64,000 bases of DNA, from assembly GCF_027111335.1 (NCBI RefSeq), contig NZ_CP114288.1:2108001-2172000 (forward strand). Reading direction: 5' to 3'. Positions 7,917 to 58,001 of the stretch are shown piece by piece (the first letter of the stretch is position 1; the number at the start of each line of letters is the position of its first letter). A model generated the notes under the pieces. The model searched no databases, had not been told where the DNA came from, and saw only the letters and a list, made by a program, of their open reading frames with translations. The DNA is from Flavobacterium aquiphilum (GTDB lineage: Bacteria; Bacteroidota; Bacteroidia; Flavobacteriales; Flavobacteriaceae). Position numbers and translations under genes: made by a program.

Positions 7917-10900
7917 ATGAACAAACTCATACGTACTAGAATAATTGCAACATTCTTTTTGATTATTTTTATTCCGAGTATATTTCCCTTAAATATTATT
8001 TATGCTTCAAATAATGGGCCTAATGCTCCGGAAGCATCTGGTTTTGAATCCGTAAATGCAACAGATATGGTTAATCTGTCTAGTGGTGATATGGCTTATG
8101 TTCTTCCCTTAATGGATGTGGGAGGTTTTCCGGTCTCACTTTCATATCACGGTGGAATTCCAATGGATTTGGAATCAACGTGGACAGGTCTAGGTTGGAA
8201 CCTTAATACAGGTGCCATTAACAGAGGATTAAATGCAACTCCCGATGATTGGAATGGTGGAAATTCATTAGATTTTATTCGTTATAGAGATTCAGAAACA
8301 ATTTATAACGTAAACGTTGGTGTAGGAATCTGTAAAGTTGCTGAAGTTGGAGTTGGAGCATCATGGGGGTCGAATAAAGGCATGTCAGGATCTGTATTTG
8401 CAAGTCTTGGTATAAAAGGAGTAGCATCAGTCTCAGGTAGTATTGACACAAATGGAAACTATTCATTAGGAGTTGGTGCAGGTGGAGAAAAATCAGGTGG
8501 CTTCAGTGCTGGTGTTGGTGTATCCGGAAACATTAATGGAGGGAAAACTAGTGTTGGATTTGGCGTTAATTACAGGTCTTCCAGTGGAATGAGTGTTGGA
8601 TTAGGTACAAGTCTAGATGGAGGGTTATCCGCTTCATTAGGGTTTTCAGGTGTAAAAGATGCTGGTTTAGAAGCAAAAGGACAAGCTGGATCAGCGTCAA
8701 TTTCAATGAATAGTTTTTCAGCAGGGGATTGGGATATTAGCAGTAAAGGATGGTTTGTGCCAATTCAAATCTATTTTATTTCATTTAGTTTTGGGAAACA
8801 AAAAATCACCTATAACCTTGCTAAAGCTTATAATAAAAAAGGATTTGGTGTTTTATATTCAAATTTAGATAATACAAATAATGATGTAGTGGAAAATGAT
8901 AATGGAATAGATTCTCAATTTACAGATTATCAAAACAGGTATAGATATATGGATGCTTATGAGCAAACTTTACCTCAGCCAGAAGAAGAATTTGTTGCAG
9001 ATAGTGATGCAGACAGGGAAAAATTAAATTTTTCCTTCGCAGGATATGATTCTTTTGAGGTAAATGCAACTGGAGTGTCTGGAGTGATGAATCCCAGAAT
9101 ATTACAAAATGCAACAATTTTTGGATTAGGTTATAAAGGAAATGATCCGAAAAGTTCCGATGGGAAAATGAGAATATATAGCCATAATTCGTTGACAACA
9201 GACAAAACTTTTGGGAAAAATACAGCAAATGATATTGAATTCTACTTTAATGGACAATTTACACAAAATACATTAATACCTAGCGTAACGCCGTTGTCAA
9301 ACAGTAATACTTCTTTGCAAGGTATATTGAGTACAAGGCAGGTTTTAAATAATCAAAGATTGAGACAAGGAAATTATGTAGAGGTTTTTACAAATAGACA
9401 AATAAAGAATAATCAAGCAGACGGGTTATTATCACCATTAAGTCCTACATCAAATGGTCTGAGTTTAGAAGCGCTAAATCGGAATACCTCAGAATATCAA
9501 AGCGACGGTATAGGTGGCTATAAAATTACCGCTCCTGATGGCAAGGTTTATCATTTTTCTCAACCTGTTTATCATTTTGAAGAAGTAGAAAGAACTGTAC
9601 TAAAAGATGTTTCGGAAAATAATGTTAGTGAGAAACGTCAATATACGGCTTATGCGACTCACTGGTTGCTTACTGCAATAACAGGCCCAGATTTTATAGA
9701 TGTGAATAATAATAACATTGCTGATGCAGCCGATTATGGATACTGGGTTAGAATGGATTATGGTAAATGGTCTGATGGATATGTATGGCGCAATCCTACG
9801 GATAAAAATCTTAAAGATTATAATTCTAATTTAGAAGGGGATATTGGGGAAAAAGAGTTCGGTACGTATCAATTTGGTCGTAAACAATTGTATTATTTGG
9901 ATCGAATTGTATCTGCTACTCATACGGCCTATTTCGTAAAAGACCTAAGGTATGATTCTGTTGGTTCTGATTTGCACTATGAATTTAACCCTGATATTAC
10001 CATGACAAATGATGGAACTACTAATCCAAATAATTCATTTGCAGGAAATACCGTGAATCCAAAAGAGGATTTTATTTATAAAAGACAGATGCAGTTAATG
10101 CTCAAAAAAATAATTTTAGTAAAAAATGAAAACGCAACCGTATCGAAAGGAAATACTTCGGATAACTTAAAACTCAGTTATCCAAGTTCTGATGATTTAA
10201 TAAAAAGTTACCAACTTCCATTTGCTAGCACAGGTGGGTTTTATGAAGAAAATGGAGGTCAGCCTAATATAACCCTTAATAATGAGAGTGGTGTTTACGA
10301 CCAAGAAGATTTCAGTAATTTTAATTACAACAATGCGATTAAAGTTGTTAATTTAGATTATAATTACAATTTAGCTACTGGAAGCCCTGGAACAATTTCT
10401 TGTTCACAAAATCCAAATGCAGGTAAATTATGTTTGAAAAGTGTGACTTTTCTAGGAAGGAATAATTTTTATTACATGCCTCCGTACCAGTTTCAATACA
10501 AAGGCGAATATTTGGGTCCTCAATCTAATTATATTATGTATCCGGCAAATGCTTTAGTACAAAAATTGGATGATGGAGTTCATATAAAGAATTTTAGCGG
10601 TAAATATATTAATTATCCAAGTAACACGGCAATTCCAATAGCCGATATAAGGGCAAAAGACGAATGGGGTTTTCTAAAAGATTTACCTAATCAAGAATCT
10701 GAAGTAAGAGCAGCAGCTTGGACTATGACCCGAATTATTACGCCTACGGGTTCATCCATTGATTTTGAACATGAAGAAGATGATTTTGATCAGGAGGCTT
10801 TTTCCAGACGTTTCTGGAATACTAATCTAAAATTTAGCACAACTGATCTTGCGAATGATGTTTTAATTGAGATACAAAATCAAGATGGATTAGTAGCTGG

Positions 10901-13301
10901 TTTAGGTGTAAATGATTTTAGAGACTATTTTAGACCTAATGAAAGGGTTTATATGGATTTATGGATTGCTAGGACAAAAGGAGGAGACACTTCTAGAAGA
11001 GGAGGTTTGGATGTTAATTCCAATACCTATTGTAAAGTTTATGAAGTTACCGCAACTAGTGTGAAGATTTTAGCAAGTAAAATACCTTTTCCAATAGAAA
11101 CTAAACAAACGGTAGATGTTAACGGTGTAATACATTACGAAGTAGTATCATCCATCCCAGCTGCATATAAAGATTTACATCCTGATTATGTACAAAATTG
11201 TTTTTTCAGTGCATCTTTGGGAGGTTCTTCTTGTTCTAAATCATATGATGTGGTACAAAGGGGACAGTTTCCAGATGTTCCGAATTGTGTTGCAGGTATT
11301 CATTGTCCTGATCATTGGGGGATTAAATATAAAATACTAGCCAACAAGGTACCGACTGCCAAAAGTGGAGGCGGAATACGTGTTAAATCGATAACATTAA
11401 ATGATGAAAGCAATCATCACTATAAAACAAATTATTATTACAATGTACCTGGTACTACAAAAGAAAAAAATAAAGGGAACTATATTTCTTCAGGTATAAC
11501 TTCATATAGTCCAGTAAGGGGTACCCAGTATGTTCCCTTTCAGTCAGAATTACCAAGTCCTGGAGTGATGTATGAATATGTGACTATGGAGTCCCAAAAT
11601 GAGAGTTTAGAAACACTGGGACAAACCAGATATCACTTTTATGTGCTTAAACCTGTTTTTGATATTTTTAATGAAAATATAGAAATGAAAGATGTGGATG
11701 GAACCGTAATTTTCAAAGCAAATGTTGTTAATCATAATTCGGAAGGAGGTTATTTAAACCAAGGTAATAAAATTCAAGCTAAGTCAATTAAATTGGACGT
11801 AAACACCTCTCTTATTGGTCAATTTAAATCTATTGAAGAATTTAACAGCAAAGGACAATTATTATCAAAAGTTGAAAGAAAATACAAAAGTGGGGTAAAT
11901 CTTAAACAATCAGGAATCAACAGAGGAAGTATGACTGAATCGTTTCAATCAATGAAATCAGTTTTTACTACCAATTCTTCGGATGAGAATCCAGTATTAA
12001 AAAACAGGTTGCTTTCTATTTCAAGTAAAGAAGAATACTCCAGTGTTTTGGAAAGCATTATTACAACAGGGCCTCATGGTAAAAATATAGAGGAATATAG
12101 CCAAACAGACCCTCAAACGGGCGCCTTCCTAGTTGTAGAAAAAACATTGTCTAATGGTGTTAAGACGCGTGAAGAAAGAGTTCCTGCTTATACTAAATAT
12201 TCCGCCATGGGAAGTAAAGTAGATAATATTAATAATAAAAACATGTTGTCTCAAACAGCTGTTGACTACTCTTATATTTTTGATAATGGTGATTGGAAAA
12301 AAACAGGTGTTGGAATTACAACTTGGAAAAATGAATGGGAATATATTGATATGGCGGGGAATACTTCAAGTCCATCTGTTTCGAATCAAAAGATATGGCG
12401 AAAACACAAAAATTTTGTTTGGAAGGGACAAAGAGATGCCAATGGTATTTTTGTAAACTATGGTATTGATGATGATGGGTTTAATTGGAAAGTTTCGGGT
12501 ATTGGTTTAAATATTACGCAATTACCACAGTGGAAACAAACCTCTGAAATAAGACTTTACGATCATTTCTCAAATCCATTAGAGCTGAAAGATATTAATA
12601 ACAATTATGTGGTAACTAAAATGGGAGACAACAATTCTAAAGTAATTGCAACTGCAAATGCAGGTTATCATGAAATGTTTTATACTAGTGCAGAAAATGG
12701 TTTGACAGGGATTAATGGCATAGACTTTCTTGAGCCTGAAATTAGATTAATAAATGCTTCCCTCACTCAAACTGATTTTCATACAGGAAAACAATGTATA
12801 GCAACAAATTCTAGTTCTCAGTTTGGTGTAGAAATGCAAAGTGGTAAACATAGGGGGGGTAAATATAAATTATCAGTATGGGTAAAAGCTAATAGTGCTC
12901 CAGATGCTCTCCTTAAAGTAAACAACAACAACGTATCTTTTACAGAGAGTATTCCAGTTGATGGTTGGGTTCTAAAATCTGCTTATGTAGATGTCCCAGC
13001 AGGACTTTGTACTATATATCTAAATTCACGTAGTTCAAGTCCAGTTTATTATGACGACTTAATGATTAGGCCTGTTTCATCTTCAATTAAGGGTTATGTA
13101 TACAATGAATGGGATGAGTTGACTTATATCGTTGGAAATAACGGTCTAGCTACCAAATTCATATACGATAAGGCGGGAAGACTAGAAAAAACTTACACCG
13201 AAGTAATTGATGACTCTTCTGTCTGTGAATGTCCTGACGATTATAAAGGAGGTTTCAAGTTAATAAAAACAAATACTTATCATAATAGATTTATAAATTA
13301 A
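7917..13301 (+). CDS. RHS 'A' protein 1 (SpvB/TcB-like shell protein)
   Basis: 1794 residues with a signal peptide (about 1-31, ending IIYAS). Residues about 50-105 hold the module shared by all A proteins here: LSSGDMAYVLPLMDVGGFPV, then GLGWNLNTGAINR. It resembles the N-terminus of SpvB/TcaC-type proteins. A Gly/Ser/Val-rich alternating beta region (about 130-265) is unique to this copy. A long beta-rich body follows, with a carbohydrate-binding-like section near 1590-1710 (GGKYKLSVWVKANS, YYDDLMIRP). The C-terminus has YD-type repeats (GYVYNEWDELTYIV, TKFIYDKAGRLEKTY). It stops 38 bases before the B gene. By analogy with TcB-TcC it would form half of an RHS shell. Confidence 0.75.
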   Translation: MNKLIRTRIIATFFLIIFIPSIFPLNIIYASNNGPNAPEASGFESVNATDMVNLSSGDMAYVLPLMDVGGFPVSLSYHGGIPMDLESTWTGLGWNLNTGAINRGLNATPDDWNGGNSLDFIRYRDSETIYNVNVGVGICKVAEVGVGASWGSNKGMSGSVFASLGIKGVASVSGSIDTNGNYSLGVGAGGEKSGGFSAGVGVSGNINGGKTSVGFGVNYRSSSGMSVGLGTSLDGGLSASLGFSGVKDAGLEAKGQAGSASISMNSFSAGDWDISSKGWFVPIQIYFISFSFGKQKITYNLAKAYNKKGFGVLYSNLDNTNNDVVENDNGIDSQFTDYQNRYRYMDAYEQTLPQPEEEFVADSDADREKLNFSFAGYDSFEVNATGVSGVMNPRILQNATIFGLGYKGNDPKSSDGKMRIYSHNSLTTDKTFGKNTANDIEFYFNGQFTQNTLIPSVTPLSNSNTSLQGILSTRQVLNNQRLRQGNYVEVFTNRQIKNNQADGLLSPLSPTSNGLSLEALNRNTSEYQSDGIGGYKITAPDGKVYHFSQPVYHFEEVERTVLKDVSENNVSEKRQYTAYATHWLLTAITGPDFIDVNNNNIADAADYGYWVRMDYGKWSDGYVWRNPTDKNLKDYNSNLEGDIGEKEFGTYQFGRKQLYYLDRIVSATHTAYFVKDLRYDSVGSDLHYEFNPDITMTNDGTTNPNNSFAGNTVNPKEDFIYKRQMQLMLKKIILVKNENATVSKGNTSDNLKLSYPSSDDLIKSYQLPFASTGGFYEENGGQPNITLNNESGVYDQEDFSNFNYNNAIKVVNLDYNYNLATGSPGTISCSQNPNAGKLCLKSVTFLGRNNFYYMPPYQFQYKGEYLGPQSNYIMYPANALVQKLDDGVHIKNFSGKYINYPSNTAIPIADIRAKDEWGFLKDLPNQESEVRAAAWTMTRIITPTGSSIDFEHEEDDFDQEAFSRRFWNTNLKFSTTDLANDVLIEIQNQDGLVAGLGVNDFRDYFRPNERVYMDLWIARTKGGDTSRRGGLDVNSNTYCKVYEVTATSVKILASKIPFPIETKQTVDVNGVIHYEVVSSIPAAYKDLHPDYVQNCFFSASLGGSSCSKSYDVVQRGQFPDVPNCVAGIHCPDHWGIKYKILANKVPTAKSGGGIRVKSITLNDESNHHYKTNYYYNVPGTTKEKNKGNYISSGITSYSPVRGTQYVPFQSELPSPGVMYEYVTMESQNESLETLGQTRYHFYVLKPVFDIFNENIEMKDVDGTVIFKANVVNHNSEGGYLNQGNKIQAKSIKLDVNTSLIGQFKSIEEFNSKGQLLSKVERKYKSGVNLKQSGINRGSMTESFQSMKSVFTTNSSDENPVLKNRLLSISSKEEYSSVLESIITTGPHGKNIEEYSQTDPQTGAFLVVEKTLSNGVKTREERVPAYTKYSAMGSKVDNINNKNMLSQTAVDYSYIFDNGDWKKTGVGITTWKNEWEYIDMAGNTSSPSVSNQKIWRKHKNFVWKGQRDANGIFVNYGIDDDGFNWKVSGIGLNITQLPQWKQTSEIRLYDHFSNPLELKDINNNYVVTKMGDNNSKVIATANAGYHEMFYTSAENGLTGINGIDFLEPEIRLINASLTQTDFHTGKQCIATNSSSQFGVEMQSGKHRGGKYKLSVWVKANSAPDALLKVNNNNVSFTESIPVDGWVLKSAYVDVPAGLCTIYLNSRSSSPVYYDDLMIRPVSSSIKGYVYNEWDELTYIVGNNGLATKFIYDKAGRLEKTYTEVIDDSSVCECPDDYKGGFKLIKTNTYHNRFIN

Positions 13302-13339: not shown

Positions 13340-16300
13340 ATGATGAAAAATATACTTTATCTTTTAGTGTTAGTGCCAATATTTGTTTTTGGATACGGAC
13401 ACCCAAAAACAAACAAGCATCCTAAAACAGGCTGTCATAAAACTATAACAAATCCTCAACAATACCCTGATTACTATCAATCAATAGAATCACGTTTTTT
13501 GGTGGGTTCAACTGACTGGACTTCGGATGGCGCAATAGGAACAATTAAGGTGACCAATAATTATTTGTCTGTTAATTTTGATGCTTCTTGGACGTACAAC
13601 CAAAGTTTTGTGACCGGGGTAATTGCTTCTCTTAACATATATCCGGCACTACCTAATATGGAATTAGGTCAAATTTATGGTAATAACGCAGAATCAGGTT
13701 ATTTTGCTAAAATTGAAGACAATAAATTAGTGATTTATACATTAACTCCGAACAGTAGTACTTATTTTAATACTTTTTATTTAGGTTTCGAGATTGATTT
13801 AAATTGTGCTACAAACTGGTATGCAGACAGTGATCAGGATGGCTATGGTGATCCAAATCAAACTCCTATTTTTGATTGTTTTAAACCAAATGGTTATGTA
13901 TCCAATAATTCTGATTGTGATGATTCTAATGCAACTGTAGTGTACCGGCGTTGGTATTTTGACAATGATAATGATGGTTATGGTTCTACTGGATATGTTG
14001 ACTCGTGCACTAAACCAGGGGATACTAGTTATGCCCTTAATAATACTGACTGTGATGATACTGATCCTTCCGTACATGGAACTGCTAGTTGGGCGCTTGA
14101 TGTCAATGGAGATGGAATAATTTCAGATCTTGATGGAACGCCAACTTATGTTAGCTCTTGCATAAAGCCTGATGCTAATTATGTACCCGTAACAGACGAT
14201 CGAAGTCATTGGATCCATGAAGTTTCTTATGATATAGATGGTAATCTTACCAGTGCTTCTAGAGCCTTTTTTGACGACTTTGGGAAATCTACCGTTGTTC
14301 TATCAAAAGATATGGTTTCAAAAAAAATTTGGGGAACTGAGATTGGCTATGATAATTTTGGAAGACCAGACAAGTCCTCTTTTATAGCACCGTCAAATTT
14401 GACAAACTTTAGCAGAGTTTCTTTTCTTAATCCTGTTTACCCAACTCCGGAAACATCAACTATTCCTGTTAATCAATCCGTTGATAACATCACTAGCAGT
14501 CAGAATGTTCAGGCTGGATATACCGTTACGGCCACCGGAAGCATAAGTCCTGGACTAAATGTCACTTTTGAGGCGAATAGTATAATTTTGGGCAACGGTT
14601 TTAGTGTTAGCGGAGCTTCAGGCGGGACTTTTACGGCTATCGCAAAAAAAACGACTAGTAGTACATCCTCTTCCGATTCTCCGTTTTTTAGTTATTATTC
14701 CGATAATAACACCATGGAGCCTTATCAGGCAACTGCCGATCAGGCTTATACCCAAACCAACTATGATATCCTTAATCCCAATAATGTCATCAACGTTGTG
14801 GGAGGAAATAGAATTAACGGGCAATGGAAAACAGGTTATTCTTATATTGTTCCAGCGGCTCAGGAATTGTACTATGTGTTTGGTTCAGATTTCTATGACG
14901 GAAATATCACTGAAAGCGGAGAGGAAGTGATCTCGAAATTCTTTAAAACGGTTATTGTTGATGCTAATGGAGTGGAAAACGTTTCTTTTTCAGATGCCGA
15001 AGGCAAAGTATTGGCGACTGCCCGTTCCGGTGGGGCATTAACTTATCCGGTTGTGTCACTAATCGGAACTCAAGGGTTTATAGATGTACATATTCCAGCT
15101 GGAATTTCTTCAGACCAAATTTCATTGATAGGGGATATCTCTTTGTATAAAATATTTGATCTCAAAACAGGAACGTATGCAAATAGACCTTTAACGGGAG
15201 GGAACGCTTATCGTATTGAAGCATATAACCCTCCTGTGACAGATCCCAAAGTCTATATTTCTAATGGAGCCCCTACCTATGATTCAGGTGCGCTGGGAAT
15301 ATCATATAGTGTAAACTATTACGATTATGCCGTAAATGTATATAACAAAACAGGCCAACTCATAAAATCGATACAGCCCAACGGTTATGTTGCCAATACT
15401 ACTATTGTAGGAACACCTGACCATATGAAGACCACCAATAATAATTTTGCATCTACTTTTAAATATGATGGGTTGGGACAATTAATAGAAGCGACAAGTG
15501 TCGATGAAGGAACTAGTAGGTTTGATTACAGGGATGACGGACAGATTAGTTTTTCGCAAAGTGCTTTACAGCTCCAAAACAAGGAGGTGTCATATACCAA
15601 ATATGATGATTTGGCAAGACCTGTTGCCTCAGGGGTTGCTAAAACAGATTGGCAATCAAGAAGTGATGAGTTTGAAACAGTGGTTCATAAAGAACAAACT
15701 TTTACAGTTTATGATTATCCTCAAAATTACGCTAACTATGTAGAAGAGTTGCCTTCCAATCTGACATTAGAAAATGTTTTAGCCTCTGCAGGAATTTCAG
15801 CTACAAATTACATGCAGCAGAACCTCTCCGGCAATGTTGCTGTTACGTTCACAAAACCCGCTACAACAATTACAGCCATAAGCTGGTACAGCTATGATAT
15901 TTATGGCAGAATTGAATGGATGGTACAATATAATGAAGGCATTGGAGCTAAAACGATTCATTATTATTACGATCATAAAGGAAATGTGACTTCGGTAGTA
16001 TTTCAAAAAGATAAAAACGCAGAGCAATTTATCCATAGATACACCTATGATGCCAATTCGGTATTGATCAAAGTGGAAACGGCCACATATGGAACTCCTT
16101 TTATCACCCATGCCGATTATTCTTATTACCAGACAGGCGAACTCAAGCGTGTGAATATTGCACAGGGACTGCAAGGTTTGGACTATGTTTATACTTTGGG
16201 CGGACAGCTTAAAAGCATCAACCACCCTAGTCTAGACTCAGCAAAAGATCCTGGGCTTGACGGATTGATAGGCTCTCCAAATGCATTTGTAAAGCCTGAT

Positions 16301-18061
16301 GTATTTGGAATCACACTGGATTATTACGAGGGAGATTATTTAAGGACAGGTCGAAACATCATGTCTTCTCCTTCTGCCGGAGCTGATTATAACGGTAATA
16401 TTAAGGCGGCAAGATGGGCGAACAAAGATAGCAGTATGGATTTAAGTGGTTCGACCATTAACCCAAAAGCTTATTTATACAATTATGACCGCAACAACTG
16501 GCTTACGGGAGCCACTTTTGGTGATGCAAATAAATCCACCGCTGAGATAAGCCCGCTTTCTAAATACAAGGAAACCGGTTTGACCTATGATGCCAATGGA
16601 AATATCAAAAGCCTACAACGAACCGATGAAAATGGTGCGGTAGTGGATAATTTGACTTATAATTACACCAATGCAGGAAAAAACCAATTAAACAGTGTAA
16701 GCGATAGTGCTGCGGCAACTGCAGACATAACTGATATAGAAAACCAAAACCCTAATAACTATGTTTATGATGCCATTGGGCAATTAACACAAAATATTTC
16801 CGAAAATTTATATTACTTTTACAACACTCAGGGGTTAGTTAGCGAAGTAAAAAAAGGCTCGAGCATCTTGGTGAAGTTCTTTTACAACGAGAGAGGCCAA
16901 CGTATTAGAAAGGAAAGTTATAATAGCAGCACAGGTGCTTTACAAAGTACCACTTTTTATGCCTTGGATTTATCCGGAAACACTCTTGCCGTTTATAATT
17001 TACCCACTGGAGGCGGTATAGTTCAAACTGATTTGTCTATCTTTGGCCTTAGTAGATTAGGCGTTTACAATAGGGCGAGCGCAACAAGTTCTTATGAAAT
17101 TACGGATCATTTAGGCAATGTCAGAGCCGTAATCCAGAAAGTGAGCGGCAGTCCTGTAATGCAGTCTTTTGCCGATTACTATCCTTTTGGAGAGCAGCTT
17201 CCAGGAAGGAATTCCCAAGGAAATTACAGGTACGCTTTTCAGGGGCAGGAGCTCGACAAGGAAACCAATATGGAAGCGTTTCAGTTAAGGCTTTGGGATG
17301 GTAGATTGGGAAGATGGTTGAGTCCTGACCCAATGGGCGAATTTCATAGTCCCTATCTTGGCATGGGAAATACTCCAATTGGAGCGATAGACCCTAATGG
17401 AGGAGATATAATTTATTTAAATGCATCAACCTCAGTTCCTGTACCTGGTGGCCTAGGGTATTTTGGACATGCTGCCGTATTAATTGGTAATGACCACGAT
17501 GGTTGGAGATATTTGTCAATGAATGGAACTGGAGAAGGAGCGGCTCCATCGGGAGGAAGTAGAAATGCTGACCTTGGTGATATCCCATATAGAAATGGTT
17601 TTGGTAATGATTTTAGAGGAACTAAATTAACAGCACATCAAGTTATGGAAATAGTTAATAATTCAAATAAAAATGAAAGCCATAATTATAACAGAGCAAT
17701 TAGAATTAAAACCTCCACTTTTGAAGATGGTATAGCGTATCAAGCAGCGAAGAAGCAAGCTAGTGGAGCTAATTATAATATATTGGGGTCATCTTGTATT
17801 GATGTACCGCAAGAAGCTCTTGAACGTGTTGTAGCACACAGATTAAATATACAGTCAGGTAAAGACCCGTTTTTTTGGAATAATCGAGTTAGTTTCTTTG
17901 ATAGAGGGGGGTATGGATTTAATATGCTCATACCTAACCAATGGTTTAATAATTTCAATTTTTTTATGAGAAATATAAATTCCGATTTGCAGGTGAATAA
18001 ATTTCAATATAATAATGTTCCTAAATATAATATTATTGTCGGACCAATAACAGAAAAATGA
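13340..18061 (+). CDS. RHS 'B' protein 1 with C-terminal papain-like toxin domain
   Basis: 1573 residues, signal peptide about 1-19. Residues 42-155 form a domain shared by all B proteins here (QYPDYYQSIESRFLV). Two MopE-like metal-binding motifs follow (about 160-247: DSDQDGYGD...DCDD and DNDNDGYG...DCDD) and a DVNGDG loop. The RHS/YD-repeat region runs to the RHS-associated core near 1270-1352 (YRYAFQGQELDKET, GRLGRWLSPDP, DPNGG). The variable tip (about 1353-1573) has GHAAVLIGND with H1377 and GSSCIDVPQEAL with C1486. His before Cys is the order of circularly permuted NlpC/P60-papain-like enzymes, so the toxin is probably a cysteine peptidase, amidase or acyltransferase. The gene overlaps the candidate immunity gene by ATGA. 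Confidence 0.8.
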   Translation: MMKNILYLLVLVPIFVFGYGHPKTNKHPKTGCHKTITNPQQYPDYYQSIESRFLVGSTDWTSDGAIGTIKVTNNYLSVNFDASWTYNQSFVTGVIASLNIYPALPNMELGQIYGNNAESGYFAKIEDNKLVIYTLTPNSSTYFNTFYLGFEIDLNCATNWYADSDQDGYGDPNQTPIFDCFKPNGYVSNNSDCDDSNATVVYRRWYFDNDNDGYGSTGYVDSCTKPGDTSYALNNTDCDDTDPSVHGTASWALDVNGDGIISDLDGTPTYVSSCIKPDANYVPVTDDRSHWIHEVSYDIDGNLTSASRAFFDDFGKSTVVLSKDMVSKKIWGTEIGYDNFGRPDKSSFIAPSNLTNFSRVSFLNPVYPTPETSTIPVNQSVDNITSSQNVQAGYTVTATGSISPGLNVTFEANSIILGNGFSVSGASGGTFTAIAKKTTSSTSSSDSPFFSYYSDNNTMEPYQATADQAYTQTNYDILNPNNVINVVGGNRINGQWKTGYSYIVPAAQELYYVFGSDFYDGNITESGEEVISKFFKTVIVDANGVENVSFSDAEGKVLATARSGGALTYPVVSLIGTQGFIDVHIPAGISSDQISLIGDISLYKIFDLKTGTYANRPLTGGNAYRIEAYNPPVTDPKVYISNGAPTYDSGALGISYSVNYYDYAVNVYNKTGQLIKSIQPNGYVANTTIVGTPDHMKTTNNNFASTFKYDGLGQLIEATSVDEGTSRFDYRDDGQISFSQSALQLQNKEVSYTKYDDLARPVASGVAKTDWQSRSDEFETVVHKEQTFTVYDYPQNYANYVEELPSNLTLENVLASAGISATNYMQQNLSGNVAVTFTKPATTITAISWYSYDIYGRIEWMVQYNEGIGAKTIHYYYDHKGNVTSVVFQKDKNAEQFIHRYTYDANSVLIKVETATYGTPFITHADYSYYQTGELKRVNIAQGLQGLDYVYTLGGQLKSINHPSLDSAKDPGLDGLIGSPNAFVKPDVFGITLDYYEGDYLRTGRNIMSSPSAGADYNGNIKAARWANKDSSMDLSGSTINPKAYLYNYDRNNWLTGATFGDANKSTAEISPLSKYKETGLTYDANGNIKSLQRTDENGAVVDNLTYNYTNAGKNQLNSVSDSAAATADITDIENQNPNNYVYDAIGQLTQNISENLYYFYNTQGLVSEVKKGSSILVKFFYNERGQRIRKESYNSSTGALQSTTFYALDLSGNTLAVYNLPTGGGIVQTDLSIFGLSRLGVYNRASATSSYEITDHLGNVRAVIQKVSGSPVMQSFADYYPFGEQLPGRNSQGNYRYAFQGQELDKETNMEAFQLRLWDGRLGRWLSPDPMGEFHSPYLGMGNTPIGAIDPNGGDIIYLNASTSVPVPGGLGYFGHAAVLIGNDHDGWRYLSMNGTGEGAAPSGGSRNADLGDIPYRNGFGNDFRGTKLTAHQVMEIVNNSNKNESHNYNRAIRIKTSTFEDGIAYQAAKKQASGANYNILGSSCIDVPQEALERVVAHRLNIQSGKDPFFWNNRVSFFDRGGYGFNMLIPNQWFNNFNFFMRNINSDLQVNKFQYNNVPKYNIIVGPITEK

Positions 18062-18573
18062 GAATGAAATCAAATTATAAGATTATTTTCATTACATTAT
18101 TAGGGTGTATGATATTATATTTGGGGTTGGTGTTGATGAATTCATACTTTGGCTGGTATGGTTATGAAAAGTGGAAATATAGAAGAGTGACTTTTGGAAA
18201 CAAAATTGAATCTGTTAAAAGAAAGGTTTTTATAAAAGATTTAGAATTTTATTCAAGTATTGATATAGATAGCTTTCATATTTTTATTGAGAGGGGGTAT
18301 AAATATGGATACCATAGTGCAAAAGATACCAGATTACTAACAAATAATAGGTATCCATATCAGCTTTCATACAAGTTTTTAGATTCTGTAAACATGATTT
18401 CATATGAAATATTAAATAAAAGCAGATATGATTCAACTGATAATGTAACGGTATTTTTGAAAAAACCATATTTAAAGGATACTTTAAAAATAGGAATTTA
18501 TAAGTATTCCTCAAAAAAATGGGACTCAATTGGGTATCTTAAGGTTTGGGATAAGTCAAAATTGACAAACTAG
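18058..18573 (+). CDS. Candidate immunity protein for RHS toxin 1
   Basis: 171 residues, starting in the ATGA overlap with the B1 stop, so translation is coupled. An N-terminal hydrophobic helix (about 8-30) suggests a membrane anchor or signal. The rest is a Lys/Tyr-rich beta-strand-rich domain without a recognised family. Position directly after the toxin tip, small size and lack of relatives among the neighbours are what mark it as immunity. Its extracytoplasmic location would fit a toxin acting in the periplasm. Confidence 0.55.
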   Translation: MRMKSNYKIIFITLLGCMILYLGLVLMNSYFGWYGYEKWKYRRVTFGNKIESVKRKVFIKDLEFYSSIDIDSFHIFIERGYKYGYHSAKDTRLLTNNRYPYQLSYKFLDSVNMISYEILNKSRYDSTDNVTVFLKKPYLKDTLKIGIYKYSSKKWDSIGYLKVWDKSKLTN

Positions 18574-19003: not shown

Positions 19004-19918
19004 TGTATAAGAGGTTATCCTTTTGGAGAGCAGCTTCCAGGAAGGAATTCCCAAGGAAATTACAGATACGCTTTCCAAGGACAAGAGCTCGATAAGGAAA
19101 CAGGAATGGAGGCGTTTCAACTGAGGCTCTGGGATGGAAGGATTGGAAGGTGGTTGAATCCTGACCCGTATGGTCAAAATTATTCGCCATATATGGGAAT
19201 GGGGAATAATCCAATAAGTATGATTGACCCTGATGGTGGGAATTGTACTGATGCGAATGGTAATTCTGTTCCTTGTGGGGATATGAATAGCGCCTATAAG
19301 AATTCATCAACTGATATTGCACAATTAAATGAAGTTGTAATTCAAGGGAAACCTAAGAGTTATTCATTAGGAGACTTAGAGTATGACTTTTATAAATATG
19401 GCAATAAATTTGACATTCTAGCAGATAAATTTGGGCAAGGTTTTGGACAATTAATTGGCTCTTTACATCCTGGAGTGGGCTTATTAAATGCCTATAAAGG
19501 ATTTACAGAAGGTCATGATATGTTTGGTAATGAAATGGGCAAAGGTGGGGCAACATTTGAAGGAGCTATGGCTGTTGTACCTTTTATTAAGATTGGAAAG
19601 TTATTACCAGAAGGGAAATATATCTTGCATCATATTGCATCTAATAAACATCTTTCTAAATTTACTCCCCAATATGAAGCTATTGCTAGTAAACTTGGAC
19701 TAAAGCTTGATGCAGCTTGGAATAAAATTCTAATTACAGATGTGCGCCATTATTCAAGGCATCCAAAACAATATCATCAATTTGTATTAGAAGGTATGCA
19801 AGCCGCTGAGGCGGGAGCTGAAGGAAATGTAACTAAGTTCCTAGAGCTGTATGATGAATATGTAATACAGCCACTTATAAAAAACCCAGATATAGTAAAC
19901 AAAACAGGTTGGAAGTAA
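19004..19918 (+). CDS. Orphan RHS toxin tip, AHH-type nuclease domain
   Basis: The frame is open from 19004 and homology to the RHS core of B1 starts at once (YPFGEQLPGRNSQGNYRYAF), so this is a displaced C-terminal tip lacking the shell. The first ATG is at 19106. After GRIGRWLNPDPYG and IDPDGG comes a linker region, then a C-terminal domain (about 19610-19918) with LHHIASNK (His-His at 19628-19633), LDAAWNKI, and HYSRHPKQYHQFV. This is the pattern of AHH/HNH-superfamily nuclease toxins. It is followed by its immunity gene through a TAATG overlap. Likely silent until recombined onto an RHS core. Confidence 0.7.
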   Translation, partial: CIRGYPFGEQLPGRNSQGNYRYAFQGQELDKETGMEAFQLRLWDGRIGRWLNPDPYGQNYSPYMGMGNNPISMIDPDGGNCTDANGNSVPCGDMNSAYKNSSTDIAQLNEVVIQGKPKSYSLGDLEYDFYKYGNKFDILADKFGQGFGQLIGSLHPGVGLLNAYKGFTEGHDMFGNEMGKGGATFEGAMAVVPFIKIGKLLPEGKYILHHIASNKHLSKFTPQYEAIASKLGLKLDAAWNKILITDVRHYSRHPKQYHQFVLEGMQAAEAGAEGNVTKFLELYDEYVIQPLIKNPDIVNKTGWK

Positions 19919-31969: not shown

Positions 31970-31970
31970 T

Positions 31971-45398: not shown

Positions 45399-46040
45399 AT
45401 GAAAAAAATAGGTCTGATTCTAAGCATTAGCTTTTTAATTTTGGGATGTAACGGACAATCCAGAGATTCCAAGTTAAATGCAGAATACATTAAATCTAAG
45501 AGTGGATTCGATTCTGTATTAACGAATCATTTTCCAAACAAGTTAACTACTTTTCCGAGGAAAATAGTTAATAGTAAGAACGTATCAAAAAATGATGTTG
45601 CTTTTATCTTATATGATTATAATTTAGATATAACTAAAATAGATTCGGTTATTAATAGCATTAAAAAGAGAACAATTGCTAAATATAGTTCTAAAGATTT
45701 ATGCTTGTTGATTGTTAATAGATTCGAAACACTCGATTCTGAAGAAAATATGAAAGATGTCATTATTACTGACAGTATAAAAATAAATCAAGATTGCTAT
45801 GAAAAATTATACCCTATTCCAAATTTTATAGATTATGATTATCCAAATAAAAAAAGTGATTTAAAATTAGATGGAAACTTTGATATTTATGTCTTAGATG
45901 CTAAGTCCGGGAATTATTTCAAAGAGTTTGATTTAAAACCCAATTCGCAAATGCCTCCAAAATGGTTAAATGGATATTCAAAAGGTATAGCAGTAAGTAA
46001 AGAGAAAAAAACTGTTATTTATTGGGCTATTATTTGGTAG
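45399..46040 (+). CDS. Lipoprotein, candidate immunity protein for RHS toxin 2
   Basis: 213 residues. Lipobox FLILGC, Cys at 17. The mature part is mixed alpha/beta with no recognised domain. It lies 9 bases after the B2 stop in the same orientation and is followed by a terminator. Its lipid anchor puts protection in the periplasm or outer membrane, so toxin 2 probably acts there (inference). Confidence 0.55.
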   Translation: MKKIGLILSISFLILGCNGQSRDSKLNAEYIKSKSGFDSVLTNHFPNKLTTFPRKIVNSKNVSKNDVAFILYDYNLDITKIDSVINSIKKRTIAKYSSKDLCLLIVNRFETLDSEENMKDVIITDSIKINQDCYEKLYPIPNFIDYDYPNKKSDLKLDGNFDIYVLDAKSGNYFKEFDLKPNSQMPPKWLNGYSKGIAVSKEKKTVIYWAIIW

Positions 46041-50981: not shown

Positions 50982-53924
50982 ATGAAAATAAAACTAACTC
51001 TAAGTTTAATTATTCTAATCAGTTTTTTTTGTTACTCGCAAGATTTGCCAAAAATAATTCGGCCTACACCAGAAGCCGCTAATTTGACCAGATATGCAGA
51101 TGTTCCTGTAAGCTTGTACACTGGAAAACCCCAGATTGATTTTCCATTGTATACATTAAAATGTGGTAGTCTTGAACTTCCGATTTCTCTTTCGTATTAC
51201 GCATCTGGAATTAAAGTTGAAGACTACCCAACTTGGGCAGGCATTGGATGGGCACTTAATGCCGGTGGAGTAATTACTAAAATATCAAAGGATAATGGAA
51301 CTCATCTTAGTTATGATTTGCCAGTTAGTGGAACTTTTAACGAGAAGACCAATGCTTTACTAACTTTTGCAGGGCCTCATGCAGTAACTGATGTGATTTA
51401 TAATTTTAATTTTTTACAATATTCAGGTACATTCCAAATGGGGAAAAATGGACCTGTTTTTAGAAAACATACCAACCTGAAAATTGAAATCGTTGATATT
51501 GCCTCTATAACGATGACAGACGATAATGGAATCAAGTATTATTTTGAACTTAAAGGAAGTCTATACGGAATACAAACCGATTACTATCTAACTAAGATAG
51601 AAAGTGCAGATAAATTCCATACAATTTATTTAGAATATATCCTTGGAGATAAATATGGAAAGCCTCCTCATAATTCTGTATTTTATACTATATACCCAGG
51701 TGTTAGTTACGTAAAGGCATCCTCAGAAAATTATGAAATCAAACATTCAGGTCTTTTGCTCAGTAAAATCTATACCTCAAATAATGATTCTGTTGAATTC
51801 ATAAAAAAAGACATAGCTCAACCTGGTTCGGAAAATTCCGTGTTTCACCATAGACAAGCGCTAGATTATATAGATGTATACAATCACAGTCATAAAATAC
51901 AGTCTTTTCATTTTAAAACAAATAATATCCAAACCATAAAACCAAAAACAGGCCCATACTCGGACCAGTTTCCCGTTTCAAATTGGGATAATAAGGCAAT
52001 GGATTATAGACTATATCTTGATGGTTTTGATAAAATAGATGCTGCAGGACAAATTGTTGAATCGTATGGTTTTGACTATTACGGACGAACAGTAGATGGC
52101 AAAGATTCATTGCCCAGTCAGTATTCCCTTGCCCAGGACTTGGATGGATATTACAATGGACAAGATAGCAATACTAGCTTAGTCCCGCCTCTAAACGAAA
52201 GTCTCAGGCCTGATGAATCTGATTTGTGGGATAAAAATTCTTACAATGATAATTTTGTAGTAAATGTTAATATTCCTGGCGCAAATCGTAGTCCCGATAT
52301 AAACTATATGAAATTGGGAACCCTCAAAACCATTAAATACCCAACAGGTGGGTCAGCAAATTTCTATTATTCACAAGTAGATAACCCTCTTAATAGTAAT
52401 CCTTTATGTGGATTGAAAATAGACAAAATAGAATATCTTAACAGCAATGGTTCTTTACAAAAAAAGAAGCAGTATGTCTACGAATATCCAGTTCTAAGCC
52501 ATCCCATTTCATCTAATTGGCACTATACATTAAAATATAGTGATTATGGTCTTATGACCCCTTTCCCTACAGAATGCGAAGTAAATGATGGTAGCAATTA
52601 TTGTGCTGATTATAATTCCTCTTATAGTTGGATTTGGGCCATAGAGTTAAGTCCTGACCCTGTTTATAGTCAGTTAGATGAAGGCCCAATGATCGGATAT
52701 GGACTTGTTAAAGAATTTGAACAAGGAAATGGACATATTGATTATCAGTTCTCCACTGATGGTGCATATGATGAAGAAGCAAGGGATCATTATTTTGAGA
52801 TTTCTAGATATGATGGATTTAATACATATACTTTATTCACTAAAAATGCTTGGCCTTTGGGTCCGTTTGAAACTAATAATTGGAAAATGGGGACACTGTT
52901 AAATAAAGCCACATATAACGAGAATGGAACAATAAAACAGGATATTCAATATCATTACTCATATGAAATCTTAGATAGGATACCCGGAATAAATCTCTTT
53001 GGTGCACCAAAAATTTCGGCTACTAGACAATATTTAGACCATGCCATTTTTTATTATCTGGATTTTGCTTATTTAAGTACCTGGGAGCGATTGGATTCTG
53101 TTACAGAAACAATGGATGGAATTACCAAGGAGACAAACTATAATTATGATGGCCATAAACAGGTGTCTCAAATAACCACTACCAAAAGTAATGGAGACAT
53201 ATTAACAACAAACTTTACGCATCCGTATGATTATCCATCATCTACTGTTTACAGCAATATGGTTGCCAGAAATATACTAGCTCCTGTGATTGAAAAAACA
53301 GAAACGACAAGTCTTAATCAGACTAAATTGGAGAAAACAAACTATTCATTTTGGAATCCAGATTCTGGTATTAATAATCTTAATATGATAACTGCAAATA
53401 ATGTAACAAATTATATTTATCCATTATCAGTAGAGGTTAAAAAAGGCCAAAACCCAATAGAGACAAGACTTAATTATAACAGTTACGATAACAAAGGAAA
53501 TATTTCAAGTATTTCAAAAACTAATGATGTGGAGACAATCTATATTTGGGGCTATGATTCTCAATATCCTATTGCAAAAATAGAGAATGCAAGCTATTCA
53601 CAGGTATCCAGTCAGGTAGCCAATTTGCAATCAAAATCTAATCTTGATAATGACAGGAACGTGGATATCATTAATTCGAATGGTACAATAAACTATCAGG
53701 GTAATGAAGGAGCATTGCGTTCCGCTTTGGCAAACCTCAGGAATTCCCTTCCCAACGCCATGGTAACAACCTACACCTATGATCCATTAATAGGAGTTAC
53801 AAGTATAACAGACCCCAAGGGATATACAACGTATTACCAGTACGATAATTTTAACCGTTTGAAACAAGTTATTGATGCACAGGGGAATATCCTTTCAGAG
53901 AACCAATACAATTACAAACAATAA
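50982..53924 (+). CDS. RHS 'A' protein 3 (SpvB/TcB-like shell protein)
   Basis: 980 residues, signal peptide about 1-20 (FFCYSQ). The entry module is YADVPVSLYTGKPQIDFPLY then WAGIGWALNAGGVITKIS (about 84-102). The beta-rich body differs from A2 (only patchy similarity), while the last 130 residues from IYIWGYDSQYPIAKIENASY to YNYKQ are nearly identical to A2. The gene ends 12 bases before B3 with the same junction sequence as A2/B2. The 220 bases upstream are A/T-rich, with no clear promoter box. Confidence 0.75.
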   Translation: MKIKLTLSLIILISFFCYSQDLPKIIRPTPEAANLTRYADVPVSLYTGKPQIDFPLYTLKCGSLELPISLSYYASGIKVEDYPTWAGIGWALNAGGVITKISKDNGTHLSYDLPVSGTFNEKTNALLTFAGPHAVTDVIYNFNFLQYSGTFQMGKNGPVFRKHTNLKIEIVDIASITMTDDNGIKYYFELKGSLYGIQTDYYLTKIESADKFHTIYLEYILGDKYGKPPHNSVFYTIYPGVSYVKASSENYEIKHSGLLLSKIYTSNNDSVEFIKKDIAQPGSENSVFHHRQALDYIDVYNHSHKIQSFHFKTNNIQTIKPKTGPYSDQFPVSNWDNKAMDYRLYLDGFDKIDAAGQIVESYGFDYYGRTVDGKDSLPSQYSLAQDLDGYYNGQDSNTSLVPPLNESLRPDESDLWDKNSYNDNFVVNVNIPGANRSPDINYMKLGTLKTIKYPTGGSANFYYSQVDNPLNSNPLCGLKIDKIEYLNSNGSLQKKKQYVYEYPVLSHPISSNWHYTLKYSDYGLMTPFPTECEVNDGSNYCADYNSSYSWIWAIELSPDPVYSQLDEGPMIGYGLVKEFEQGNGHIDYQFSTDGAYDEEARDHYFEISRYDGFNTYTLFTKNAWPLGPFETNNWKMGTLLNKATYNENGTIKQDIQYHYSYEILDRIPGINLFGAPKISATRQYLDHAIFYYLDFAYLSTWERLDSVTETMDGITKETNYNYDGHKQVSQITTTKSNGDILTTNFTHPYDYPSSTVYSNMVARNILAPVIEKTETTSLNQTKLEKTNYSFWNPDSGINNLNMITANNVTNYIYPLSVEVKKGQNPIETRLNYNSYDNKGNISSISKTNDVETIYIWGYDSQYPIAKIENASYSQVSSQVANLQSKSNLDNDRNVDIINSNGTINYQGNEGALRSALANLRNSLPNAMVTTYTYDPLIGVTSITDPKGYTTYYQYDNFNRLKQVIDAQGNILSENQYNYKQ

Positions 53925-56900
53925 TTTTTTTAAATCATGAAAAAATACTTACTTATTCTGTTTTTGTTTTGTATCAATTGTATCAATGCTAAACCTATTA
54001 ATCACAATAATGGTAGTCTTCCAATAGTTCCACCAAATACACAATATCCGGATTACTATCAAAGTTTTGAATCTCGTTTTTTGGTTGACTCAAATGATTG
54101 GACTTCTGATGGAGCTAGCTGGACAATTCAAGTCTATAATAATTATTTGATGATCTTTATTGACGCTTCCTGGGATTACAACCAAACAATGACAACAGGA
54201 ACGATCGCTACAATAAATATATCACCGGCTCTACCCAATATTGAACTGGGGCCGATTTATAATAATAGTGGAGAAACAGGATATTTTGCCAAAATAGAAG
54301 ACAACCATTTAGTGATTTACACTTTGGATCCAAATAATCATCCCTATTTTAGCTATTTCTTTTTAAGTTCTACCATTGATTTAAGTTGCATAACCAATTG
54401 GTATAAGGACAATGATGGAGATGGATATGGTGATTCAAATTCAATTCCGATTTCTGATTGCTACCAGCCAGTTTATAATTATGTATCAAACAATTCCGAC
54501 TGTGATGATCAAAACGCTAATGTTACTGCTGGACAAAGTTGGTATTATGACACCGATAACGACGGATTTGGAGACGCTAATTCCAGTCCTGTTTCGGCAT
54601 GTTCAAAACCCTATGGGAACTTTGTGTCCAATAACTTGGACACCTGTCCAAATGATTACAGTATAGCAAATAATGGATGTCCGCAAAGCCCACCATTAAT
54701 AAACGAAAATTATGTTCGTGTAATTACTCCAACTATGTCTTCAACATCTGTTGATGGGTTAACGACTTCTCAAAAATTAGATAATATCACTTACTTTGAT
54801 GGTTTAGGTCGTCCGATGCAAAAAGTAGCCATAGCTGCCGGGGGTAATTACCAAGATATAATCACACCTATTGGATATGATAATTATGGAAGACAAGAAA
54901 AAGAGTATTTATCGTATGCAGAAACCTATAATGGAGGATTATACAGAAACAATGCACTACAGGATATCTTCCCTTTTTATAATACTTCCAAATATGAAAA
55001 CACCGTCAATCCATATTCGCAGAAAGAATTTGAGCCTTCTCCTCTCAACAGGGTATTAAAACAAGCGGCTCCGGGCAATGCTTGGAAATGGGGTAGTGGG
55101 AATGAAATAAAACTAGATTACCAAGCCAATAGTAGTGTGGACCAAGTAAGGCGTTTCAGTGTATCGTTTGTTAACGGTAATAGTGAAGATCCCTCTCTGG
55201 CAGACGATGGGATCTACGTCATTAATCAATTATCCAAAATGATTACCAAAGACGAAAATTGGAAACCAATTGATAATAAGGACAGAACAACGGAGGAATT
55301 TAAAGACAAAGAAGGTCATTTGGTCTTAAAAAGAACTTATGACAATCAGGTTGCTCATGATACGTATTATGTCTATGATATATTTGGTAATTTAACTTAT
55401 GTATTGCCTCCTTTGGCAAATGGCATTATTGATAATGCTACACTTAATAATTTGTGTTATCAATACAGATATGACAATAGAAACCGTCTGATAGAAAAAA
55501 AACTTCCGGGAAAAGGATGGGAATATATTGTTTATGACAAACTGGACCGTCCGATTCTTACCCAAGATTCCAATCTGAAAATTCAGAATAAATGGCTGTT
55601 TACCAAATATGACGCCTTTGGTAGAGTAGTATATACGGGCGAATATGTAAATGGAGCGGATCGAGCTACAGTACAAAGTCTGGCCAATGGTAATACGGCA
55701 CAGTTTGAAGTCAAACAGGGAGCCAATAGTATAAACGGAACCATTGCGTATTACAGCAATACTGCTTTTCCTAATTCAGGAATCGATTTGTTTACTATCA
55801 ATTATTATGACGATTACGGCTTTGATATTCCCGCAGGTGCTCCTTCTGGAGGGGCAATTTATGGAGTTACACCTATCACTAATGCCAAGGGACTGGCAAC
55901 GGGTAGTAAAATTCGCATCTTGGGAAAATCCGATTGGACCACCAATGTTATTTATTATGATACCAAGGGAAGAGCTATTTGCAATTACAGCAAAAACAAT
56001 TTTCTGGGTACAACCAGTATGGTGAACAGCGATCTTGATTTTATTGGCAAACCAAACCAAACCACTACGACGCATAAAAAAATGGGATACGCTGATATTA
56101 CAATTATTGACAACTATTCATATGACCATGCAGGCAGGTTATTGATTCATGACCAATCCGTGAATGGACAGTCACTGGAAGTTATTGTTAGTAATAATTA
56201 CGATGAACTTGGACAGCTCTCTAGTGTGGGAGTGGGTGGAAAAACTTATCAAAATCGTTTGCAGACTATCGATTACACTTACAATGTTCGTGGCTGGCTG
56301 AAAGGGATCAATGATGTTAATGCAATAGGGAATGACCTGTTCAGTTTCAAACTGAGTTATAATGATTCTACTGCTCCATCACCTTTGTTTAATGGGAACA
56401 TCAGCCAAAGTTTTTGGAAAACAGCCAATCAAGATACCAGTTTGAAAAGCTATAATTATACTTATGATGCTTTAAACCGATTGACTAATGCTGCAGACAA
56501 TCAAAATAGGTATTCTGAAGTTTTAAGTTACGATTTGAATGGTAATATAAAAACATTGAAAAGAAACGGAAACCAAATTCTTGGGACGGGCAATTATGGA
56601 CTGATTGATGATTTAACGTACGAATATTTATTGGGTAATCGACTCAACAAGGTAAGTGATGCTACTGGGTATGCCGAAGGATTCAAGGATGTTGTAAGTT
56701 CGATTGATTATGGCTATGATGCCAACGGAAATATGACCAGTGATATGAATAAGGGAATTGCAAACATTTCCTATAATCAACTAAATCTTCCCGTTACAAT
56801 ACAAATGGCAGGAGGAACAATCACTTATGATTATGATGCCACAGGAACAAAATTGCGTAAAACGGTAAATGGCAACATTACTGACTATGCAAGCGGATTT

Positions 56901-57145
56901 CAATATTTTAACGGAAACCTGCAGTTTTTCTCTCAACCACAGGGGTATGTGGATTGGAATAATGGGAATATTGACTATATTTACCAATACAAAGACCATT
57001 TGGGTAATGTTCGTTTAGCCTATAAAGATGGGGATAAGAATGGAGTAGTAAGCAGTGGCGATATTCTTTCGGAGGATAATTATTATCCTTTTGGATTAAA
57101 ACAGAGAGGATATAATGAAGCAAATGTAAATACGAACAATAAGTA
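53538..57145 (+). repeat. 3.6-kb near-identical block, copy 2
   Basis: Counterpart of 41013-44620 at a constant offset of 12525 bases. It covers the A3 tail, the A/B junction and most of the B3 gene up to the RHS-associated core. The most divergent spot in it is about 53639-53680, next to the left edge. Confidence 0.85.
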
Positions 57146-58001
57146 TAAGTACAATGGCAAAGAGCTCCAAGACGAGCTGGGGCTTAACATGTACGACTAT
57201 GGAGCAAGGAATTATGACCCTGCTCTAGGTCGTTGGATGAATATTGATCCATTAGCAGAAAAATCTCGTAGATTTAGCCCATATACCTATGCTCTTGATA
57301 ATCCTGTTTATTTTATTGACCCCGATGGAATGGAAGCTAAGTCTCCAATTTATGACCCTAACGGTAATTTTTTAGGTACAGATAACAAAGGTTTACAAGG
57401 TATGGCTATTGTAATGAATAAAAAAGATTTTACCCAAGGGATGTCATCAGAAGAAGCTACCGATAAAAACCTTGGTCAAGATGCTTTTACTAGTGATAAA
57501 GCAGAGCTTAAAGCTTTCAACCATTTTAATGGACTAAAAGATAGACCAGATTATGATGGAGTTGTAACAATCAACGAGGGAGTTTCTTGGGCTAAAGCCC
57601 ACCCAAACACAAAAGACAGTACAAATCCTAATGATGCTCTTTATTTAGATTCTTCTAAAATGGATTTTGGGTCATTAAGCTCGAATAATATGGTTCAAGG
57701 GGTTCAAGGAAATGTTAATTTATTTGATTATACAGATTATACGAGTAATAACTCACGTTATACAACCTATGCATTAGGAAATACTCAAATGAAACTTTTA
57801 GATGCTCAAAAAGGAACAGTACAGTTATATTCGGATGTTTATGATTGGGATTATCATGATAAAAATTATCAACATAGCAATACTAATCCACCAAGTTCTA
57901 AAAGGGATAGATTGGTTTGGGGAGATAGAATTTTAAAAGGGTTAGATGATAGTCATGGTTTTAAGGTTTTTATGTATGGAACAGGAACTTTAAGGAAATA
58001 A
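53937..58001 (+). CDS. RHS 'B' protein 3 with toxin tip of unknown type
   Basis: 1354 residues. The first 1070 residues are practically those of B2 (signal peptide, B-type N-terminal domain, MopE-like motifs, DUF6443-like segment, YD repeats). Differences start in the RHS core: GRWMNIDPLAEKSRRFSPYT, then DPDGM. The tip (about 1135-1354) starts SPIYDPNGNFLGTDNKGLQG and includes DYDGVVTINEGVSWAKAHPN and DALYLDSSKMDFGSLSSNN. Tips of this sort are recurrent in Bacteroidetes RHS proteins but without an assigned activity known to me. The lipoprotein gene downstream is the immunity candidate. Confidence 0.8.
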   Translation: MKKYLLILFLFCINCINAKPINHNNGSLPIVPPNTQYPDYYQSFESRFLVDSNDWTSDGASWTIQVYNNYLMIFIDASWDYNQTMTTGTIATINISPALPNIELGPIYNNSGETGYFAKIEDNHLVIYTLDPNNHPYFSYFFLSSTIDLSCITNWYKDNDGDGYGDSNSIPISDCYQPVYNYVSNNSDCDDQNANVTAGQSWYYDTDNDGFGDANSSPVSACSKPYGNFVSNNLDTCPNDYSIANNGCPQSPPLINENYVRVITPTMSSTSVDGLTTSQKLDNITYFDGLGRPMQKVAIAAGGNYQDIITPIGYDNYGRQEKEYLSYAETYNGGLYRNNALQDIFPFYNTSKYENTVNPYSQKEFEPSPLNRVLKQAAPGNAWKWGSGNEIKLDYQANSSVDQVRRFSVSFVNGNSEDPSLADDGIYVINQLSKMITKDENWKPIDNKDRTTEEFKDKEGHLVLKRTYDNQVAHDTYYVYDIFGNLTYVLPPLANGIIDNATLNNLCYQYRYDNRNRLIEKKLPGKGWEYIVYDKLDRPILTQDSNLKIQNKWLFTKYDAFGRVVYTGEYVNGADRATVQSLANGNTAQFEVKQGANSINGTIAYYSNTAFPNSGIDLFTINYYDDYGFDIPAGAPSGGAIYGVTPITNAKGLATGSKIRILGKSDWTTNVIYYDTKGRAICNYSKNNFLGTTSMVNSDLDFIGKPNQTTTTHKKMGYADITIIDNYSYDHAGRLLIHDQSVNGQSLEVIVSNNYDELGQLSSVGVGGKTYQNRLQTIDYTYNVRGWLKGINDVNAIGNDLFSFKLSYNDSTAPSPLFNGNISQSFWKTANQDTSLKSYNYTYDALNRLTNAADNQNRYSEVLSYDLNGNIKTLKRNGNQILGTGNYGLIDDLTYEYLLGNRLNKVSDATGYAEGFKDVVSSIDYGYDANGNMTSDMNKGIANISYNQLNLPVTIQMAGGTITYDYDATGTKLRKTVNGNITDYASGFQYFNGNLQFFSQPQGYVDWNNGNIDYIYQYKDHLGNVRLAYKDGDKNGVVSSGDILSEDNYYPFGLKQRGYNEANVNTNNKYKYNGKELQDELGLNMYDYGARNYDPALGRWMNIDPLAEKSRRFSPYTYALDNPVYFIDPDGMEAKSPIYDPNGNFLGTDNKGLQGMAIVMNKKDFTQGMSSEEATDKNLGQDAFTSDKAELKAFNHFNGLKDRPDYDGVVTINEGVSWAKAHPNTKDSTNPNDALYLDSSKMDFGSLSSNNMVQGVQGNVNLFDYTDYTSNNSRYTTYALGNTQMKLLDAQKGTVQLYSDVYDWDYHDKNYQHSNTNPPSSKRDRLVWGDRILKGLDDSHGFKVFMYGTGTLRK

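Follow-up and report, generated by a model that had tools for sequence, protein, structure and literature searches.

Can a single Rhs toxin cage be built from two chains that leave the cytoplasm separately? This question is raised by a stretch of 64,000 nucleotides from Flavobacterium aquiphilum (contig NZ_CP114288.1, positions 2,108,001 to 2,172,000; genome of 5.05 Mb in one contig), hereafter the window, in which gene pairs encode an A chain followed by a B chain. A previous reading made from the letters alone (the sequence-only reading) had described three such pairs and interpreted them as two-chain Rhs systems reminiscent of TcB-TcC of the Tc toxins. All six open reading frames (ORFs) were recovered at the positions given by that reading, the A-B gaps, put at 12 to 38 bases, measured 38, 12, and 12, and the RHS core claimed for every B was matched by TIGR03696 in B1, B2, and B3. 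The Pfam scan also placed RHS_repeat in B1, B2, A2, and A3 and DUF6443 in B2 and B3. A fourth, decayed A-B pair begins at 60731 and extends beyond the window. As detailed below, the likely explanation is that a single Rhs polymorphic-toxin cage is divided between A and B, each synthesized on its own and exported by Sec. The chains are arranged as follows.

7917..13301, + strand: A1, 1794 amino acids (aa), putative first half-cage chain of pair 1 (A1/B1 subtype; relatives at L071, L074, L075, and L076)
13340..18061, + strand: B1, 1573 aa, putative second half-cage chain with RHS core (TIGR03696, 6e-14) and tip
38223..41399, + strand: A2, 1058 aa, divergent from the GspG end of an operon resembling a type II secretion system (T2SS)
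41412..45389, + strand: B2, 1325 aa, with signal-like start, N-domain, DUF6443, YD trunk, RHS core, and tip
41014..44808, + strand: constant block made up of the A2 tail, the gap, and the B2 trunk; its identity to 53539-57333 is 98.5%
50982..53924, + strand: A3, 980 aa, structure model made
53937..58001, + strand: B3, 1354 aa, structure model made; trunk near-identical to that of B2, tip different
60731..64000, + strand: A4, an A tail with FnIII repeats whose first part is missing; it runs on to L004:5347, with a truncated B4 behind it

Evidence that the two chains belong to one cage came from relatives in which they are joined. Here and below, family, genus, and class are those of the window organism (Flavobacteriaceae, Flavobacterium, and Bacteroidia). 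A phylum sample contained 36 A-bearing genomes, 18 of which supplied the 20 stretches that were fetched; the five of family f2 are among the others. At 10 loci in eight genomes outside the class, the A and B profiles matched one ORF, in that order, in eight cases (2061 to 2443 aa, with a partial A match in L246); the two exceptions are L239, interrupted by a contig end, and L244, whose ORF stops before the core. One of these single chains, L241, holds a laminin-G-like lectin between the halves. Inside the family, L051 is a natural A-B fusion of 2343 aa with a Tox-REase-9 tip, in which the A tail continues directly into DUF6443 and neither an internal signal peptide nor an N-domain was found between the halves. 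These data indicated that each pair makes up a single Rhs cage, one half in A and the other in B.

Where the chains are separate, they are encoded together almost without exception. Since the genome searches score few candidates per genome, the match lists are lower bounds: in a family set of 149 genomes that comes close to one per genus, relatives of B2 were detected in 35 (E 1e-20) and relatives of A2 in 28 (E 1e-10). In the family stretches that were fetched, 52 of 63 tail-bearing A ORFs are directly followed by a B on the same strand (gaps of -62 to 496 bases, median 11); two others precede a second A, one is fused to B, and eight lie at a contig or window end. A scan of named Bacteroidota genomes, from which 80 loci were kept, gave a B after 66 of 80 tail-bearing A ORFs (gaps of -68 to 1928 bases, median 13), a second A after one, and no B after 13, of which 11 end within 1.2 kb of a contig end. 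The locus sets partly overlap (e.g., L142 and L193), and their counts are therefore not summed. Nine of 10 loci from other families of the class likewise show A and then B. Only L165 and L247 have a full A that lacks a B despite room for one downstream (none within 8 kb in either case), and L113 has, as judged by eye, a B-like remnant downstream of A. Thus, the regular occurrence of A homologues without B, which the sequence-only reading had named as fatal to its proposal, was not observed, and the co-occurrence of the A tail with B that it had suggested checking across Bacteroidetes is near constant. Two consecutive A genes precede one B at L049, L053, and L181, the first A of L053 being a broken A2 relative, and in some loci (clusters of nine and six), including L111, L117, L120, L125, L127, L128, L134, L143, and L145, a short ORF of ~140 aa that looks secreted separates A from B. 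No A3 relative was confirmed in one scan of viral contigs.

To place the chains on solved cages, structure models were compared with known folds. The A3 model was built with 51 sequences (predicted local distance difference test [pLDDT] 75; predicted template modeling score [pTM] 0.78), and the B3 model, from residue 241, with 50 (pLDDT 76; pTM 0.73; residues 13-871 mostly above 80, tip unpredicted). On RhsA, the A model spans 302-782 and the B model 792-1421; on the Tc pair, the A model covers YenB 21-1269 and the B model, from its residue 200, covers YenC2 4-690. Across 20 non-teneurin entries, bacterial or insect, the A and B ranges overlap by 0 residues in 10, by 4 to 27 in five, and by 74 to 129 in five. 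The teneurins do not show this successive placement: the A range covers the B range in all eight entries. Foldseek TMt of B was 0.70 on YenC2 and 0.14 to 0.41 on the one-chain cages of the type VI secretion system (T6SS). Low TMt as proof of an open half-shell was dropped, because, with a second aligner, RhsP was no worse a fit for B than YenC2; the half-cage claim was rested on coverage instead. At the sequence level, the B profile matched SGS1 (7e-24), YenC2 (5e-20), and also teneurin-like proteins, and the A profile matched Tre23 at 0.024 and YenB at 0.42. The mosquito salivary protein SGS1 (PDB 8fjp), the best B-profile match among solved structures, takes A on 385-1555 and B on 1547-2737, in order; an arthropod RHS salivary protein is already included in a 2012 survey (PMC3482391). 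Together with the single-chain relatives, the fusion, and the near-constant pairing, the successive places on solved cages give good support to the central claim of the sequence-only reading, that A and B form one two-chain Rhs cage.

The variable and constant parts of the chains are distributed as in a polymorphic toxin. A block of 3798 bases, from the last ~128 residues of A through residue ~1133 of B, is 98.5% identical between pairs 2 and 3, and outside this block their A heads and B tips are only ~40% identical in nucleotides; the same pattern was found in genome G130 (99.7% over 4009 bases). The comparison indicates that A heads and B tips are exchanged around a constant block. In the core, D864 and G891 are invariant and D888 is conserved in at least 90% of 50 sequences, a region that we take, from known Rhs proteins, to be the aspartyl-protease motif of the RHS core. 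The exchangeable tips of 44 relatives measure 175 to 281 aa, with one of 406, and the families recognized among 48 tips include Peptidase_M91 (three) and Ntox33, NucA/NucB, AHH, HNH, and JAB1-toxin (one each). With YD/RHS repeats and core, an exchangeable tip on a constant trunk, and the aspartate motif, the proteins have the predicted features of Rhs polymorphic toxins. Each B is followed by a candidate immunity gene without a known family, apart from DUF3997 at its cut-off in pair 3, and the window also holds an orphan AHH tip with an Imm11 gene behind it:

18058..18573, + strand: pair 1 candidate immunity gene, proposed from position only; no Pfam family
19106..19918, + strand: orphan tip, an RHS core piece with AHH nuclease (domain matches)
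19909..20511, + strand: Imm11 immunity gene after the orphan tip (PF07791, 3e-11)
45399..46040, + strand: pair 2 candidate immunity gene, lipoprotein-like (by eye)
58005..58454, + strand: pair 3 candidate immunity gene, lipoprotein-like (by eye); DUF3997 at its cut-off
58584-58826, + strand: start-less open stretch resembling a cut-off tip (by eye)

In pairs 2 and 3, the lipoprotein-like candidates would fit with a toxin crossing the periplasm of its producer. PADLOC gave only weak matches for the genes near these two pairs.

Export of both chains was approached through their N termini. By a home-made rule, 68 of the 75 A proteins and 70 of the 71 B proteins have signal-like starts, versus 119 of 252 other ORFs; given two such starts, assembly outside the inner membrane is plausible. 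A survey of 33 long B N-domains, picked for length (31 from relatives, two from the window), yielded seven with Ig_7, three with MopE, and one each with LRR, NHL, and SprB repeats, and the A tails of some genomes bear DUF5977 or FnIII repeats. This suggests that the seam, formed by the A tail and the B start, serves in some lineages as a mount for adhesin-like modules. The eight extended A tails (L187-L192, L201, and L206) carry DUF5977 repeats and no sorting domain among their Pfam/NCBIfam matches.

Three other accounts of the pairs can be set against a cage made of two halves. B might be a complete one-chain Rhs toxin and A a separate secreted partner, such as an adhesin, lid, or chaperone, that happens to have YD repeats. 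This is unlikely, since B alone spans just ~56% of the RhsA cage (792-1421 of 302-1421), A filling the remainder, and since both halves occupy one ORF in the single-chain relatives and in L051. The one-chain T6SS effectors RhsA, RhsP, Tse5, and Tse15 do share with A-B the cage fold, an RHS core with conserved aspartates, and an exchangeable tip, but A-B consists of two chains with signal-like starts, and no PAAR family is among the Pfam matches of the six A/B proteins (E 0.1). A two-chain teneurin-like surface or adhesion protein that is not a toxin is highly unlikely in view of the exchangeable tips, several of which fall in known toxin families, and of the Imm11 gene behind the orphan tip.

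The proposal that the pairs are a true Tc toxin B-C component, with the A subunit encoded elsewhere, has hardly any chance of being right. The resemblance to TcB-TcC (YenB/YenC2 and TcdB2/TccC3) is real in that an SpvB-like start on the first of two chains goes with an RHS core and a variable tip on the second, and in that the B model is close to YenC2. The break between the chains, however, comes ~190 residues earlier, as the A model ends at YenB 1269 of 1457 and YenC2 begins at B-model residue 200, and FG-GAP propeller repeats are absent from A1-A3 (Pfam, E 0.1), yet the same library finds them in a one-chain Rhs elsewhere in the genome (L005:6687-13127, - strand). That protein resembles the pairs in its SpvB-like start and its RHS repeats and core and differs in being a single chain of 2146 aa with FG-GAP repeats. 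A-B further differs from TcB-TcC in its signal-like starts on both chains, its seam modules, and its T2SS-like neighbours, and the TcA binding domain PF18276 was not found in the genome, in a search that had no positive control because no control genome matched. With a different break and no TcB propeller repeats in A, the Tc likeness is an analogy and not membership. Of the sequence-only interpretation, therefore, the two-chain cage stands well supported, and the Tc comparison is kept only as an analogy.

How would the halves cross the outer membrane? Between pairs 1 and 2, two features lie on the opposite strand:

22058-25426, - strand: long repetitive fibre-like secreted protein (from its sequence)
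25787..37690, - strand: T2SS-like operon with GspF, pseudopilins, PilN-like protein, secretin, ATPase, probable prepilin peptidase, and GspG

The operon contains the secretin (PF00263, 5e-39), assembly ATPase (PF00437, 7e-129), GspF (PF00482, 6e-45), and pseudopilin (N_methyl, 3e-5) expected of a T2SS; its prepilin peptidase candidate matched PF01478 below the cut-off (E 0.0015). One GspE-type match was obtained in the genome at E 1e-40. When the 658 flanking ORFs of the 80 loci were clustered blind to function, the most recurrent families after B pieces were one of fibre-like proteins (16 loci) and those of T2SS genes. By similarity to the window operon, a core T2SS gene is present at 14 of the 80 loci (GspG at 13, GspD at 11, GspE at 11, GspO at 10, and GspF at five). 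Relatives of the fibre-like gene lie beside A genes at those 16 loci and also beside single-chain relatives.

The linkage was then quantified. GspE occurs in 31 of the 149 family genomes, with 26 carrying A and GspE, two A only, five GspE only, and 116 neither (p 8e-22); one of the 28 A genomes, G114, has an A1-type N-terminal match only, and without it the table reads 25, 2, 6, and 116 (p 1e-20). In 20 of the 26 genomes, where 0.3 would be expected, A and GspE are no more than 10 kb apart, and in 17 of these 20 they are on opposite strands; the expectation assumes 4.2 Mb per genome and ignores shared descent, and the window's A1 was added to the count by hand. In the genus, all six genomes with a close GspE have A, and A-type genes flank the operon, as in the window, in the four whose neighbourhood was recovered whole enough; the sixth is in small contigs. 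The single-chain relatives L241, L242, and L246 also adjoin T2SS genes, and in the phylum sample GspE (at least 45% identity) is present in 15 of 36 A-bearing versus 11 of 260 other genomes (p 3e-9). This link between A genes and the T2SS-like operon is new in this analysis, as is the fourth pair.

Several counts weigh against this export step: within the genus, a close GspE is lacking in 27 of the 33 genomes with A, A is present in only two of six genomes with a second GspE clade (52 to 56% identity), and GspE is missing from 21 of the 36 A-bearing genomes of the phylum sample. The T2SS-like machine as sole exporter was rejected on the first two of these counts. The same numbers favour a two-half cage exported by the type IX secretion system (T9SS), by vesicles, or by lysis, with the T2SS linkage reflecting a shared island, and we give this close to an even chance; the presence of GspE in 26 of 28 A-bearing family genomes, its proximity and strand pattern, and the recurrence of the link at single-chain relatives speak against it, as does, for the T9SS, the lack of a sorting domain in the extended A tails. 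Passage through the linked T2SS-like machine itself could as well be right as wrong. Signal peptides on RHS toxins, also in Bacteroidetes, were reported in the 2012 survey (PMC3482391), whose table label T2SS/Sec-dependent rests on the signal peptide and not on signature neighbour genes; A and B likewise have signal-like starts, whereas the parts of the survey consulted mention neither a cage of two chains nor a secretin operon linked to one. A putative T2SS of Cytophaga hutchinsonii (PMC5553014), from the same phylum, has the same kinds of parts (D, E, F, G, O, and PilN-type) gathered in a single cluster whose order is unusual and which four other members share, but it is tied to cellulose use, and the word RHS is absent from that text.

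Taken together, the half-cage explanation would run as follows. For both chains, Sec is the most likely route out of the cytoplasm. A, with its SpvB-like head, variable middle, and conserved YD tail, would form about the first 43% of the wall by the RhsA mapping, and B, with DUF6443, YD trunk, and RHS core with conserved aspartates, would form the rest. The half-cages may fold and then join at the seam, and the core may cleave the exchangeable toxin tip of B inside the closed cage. Where it is present, the linked T2SS-like machine is the best candidate for passage across the outer membrane. The targets would presumably be other bacteria, with the producer protected by the next gene. A fuller version is more tentative, and we hold it to be somewhat less probable than an even chance: a Bacteroidota T2SS-like machine would export the half-cages separately, which would enclose the cleaved tip either at the cell surface or beyond it and bear adhesin-like modules at the seam, the split being independent of Tc and letting A heads and B tips swap round a fixed seam.

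Two remaining features lie between pairs 2 and 3 and are perhaps the remains of a mobile element:

46483-47325, - strand: relaxase-like gene (PF03432, 1e-13)
47415-50633: helix-turn-helix gene and other small genes

Neither an Rhs of Bacteroidota made as two chains nor linkage between an Rhs and a secretin operon was described in the literature searched, whose coverage is partial, and the name DUF6443 appeared in none of its papers. If the half-cage explanation is true, this is a second independent fission of an Rhs cage, meaning that such cages can be built from exported halves; the A head would add a second variable module to the polymorphic-toxin scheme, and DUF6443 would have a role as the first part of the B wall. 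How large Rhs cages exit from cells that use no T6SS becomes a question that the link between cage and T2SS makes testable by removing one gene, and the linkage suggests that bacteria may have an unrecognized route for sending out such toxins.
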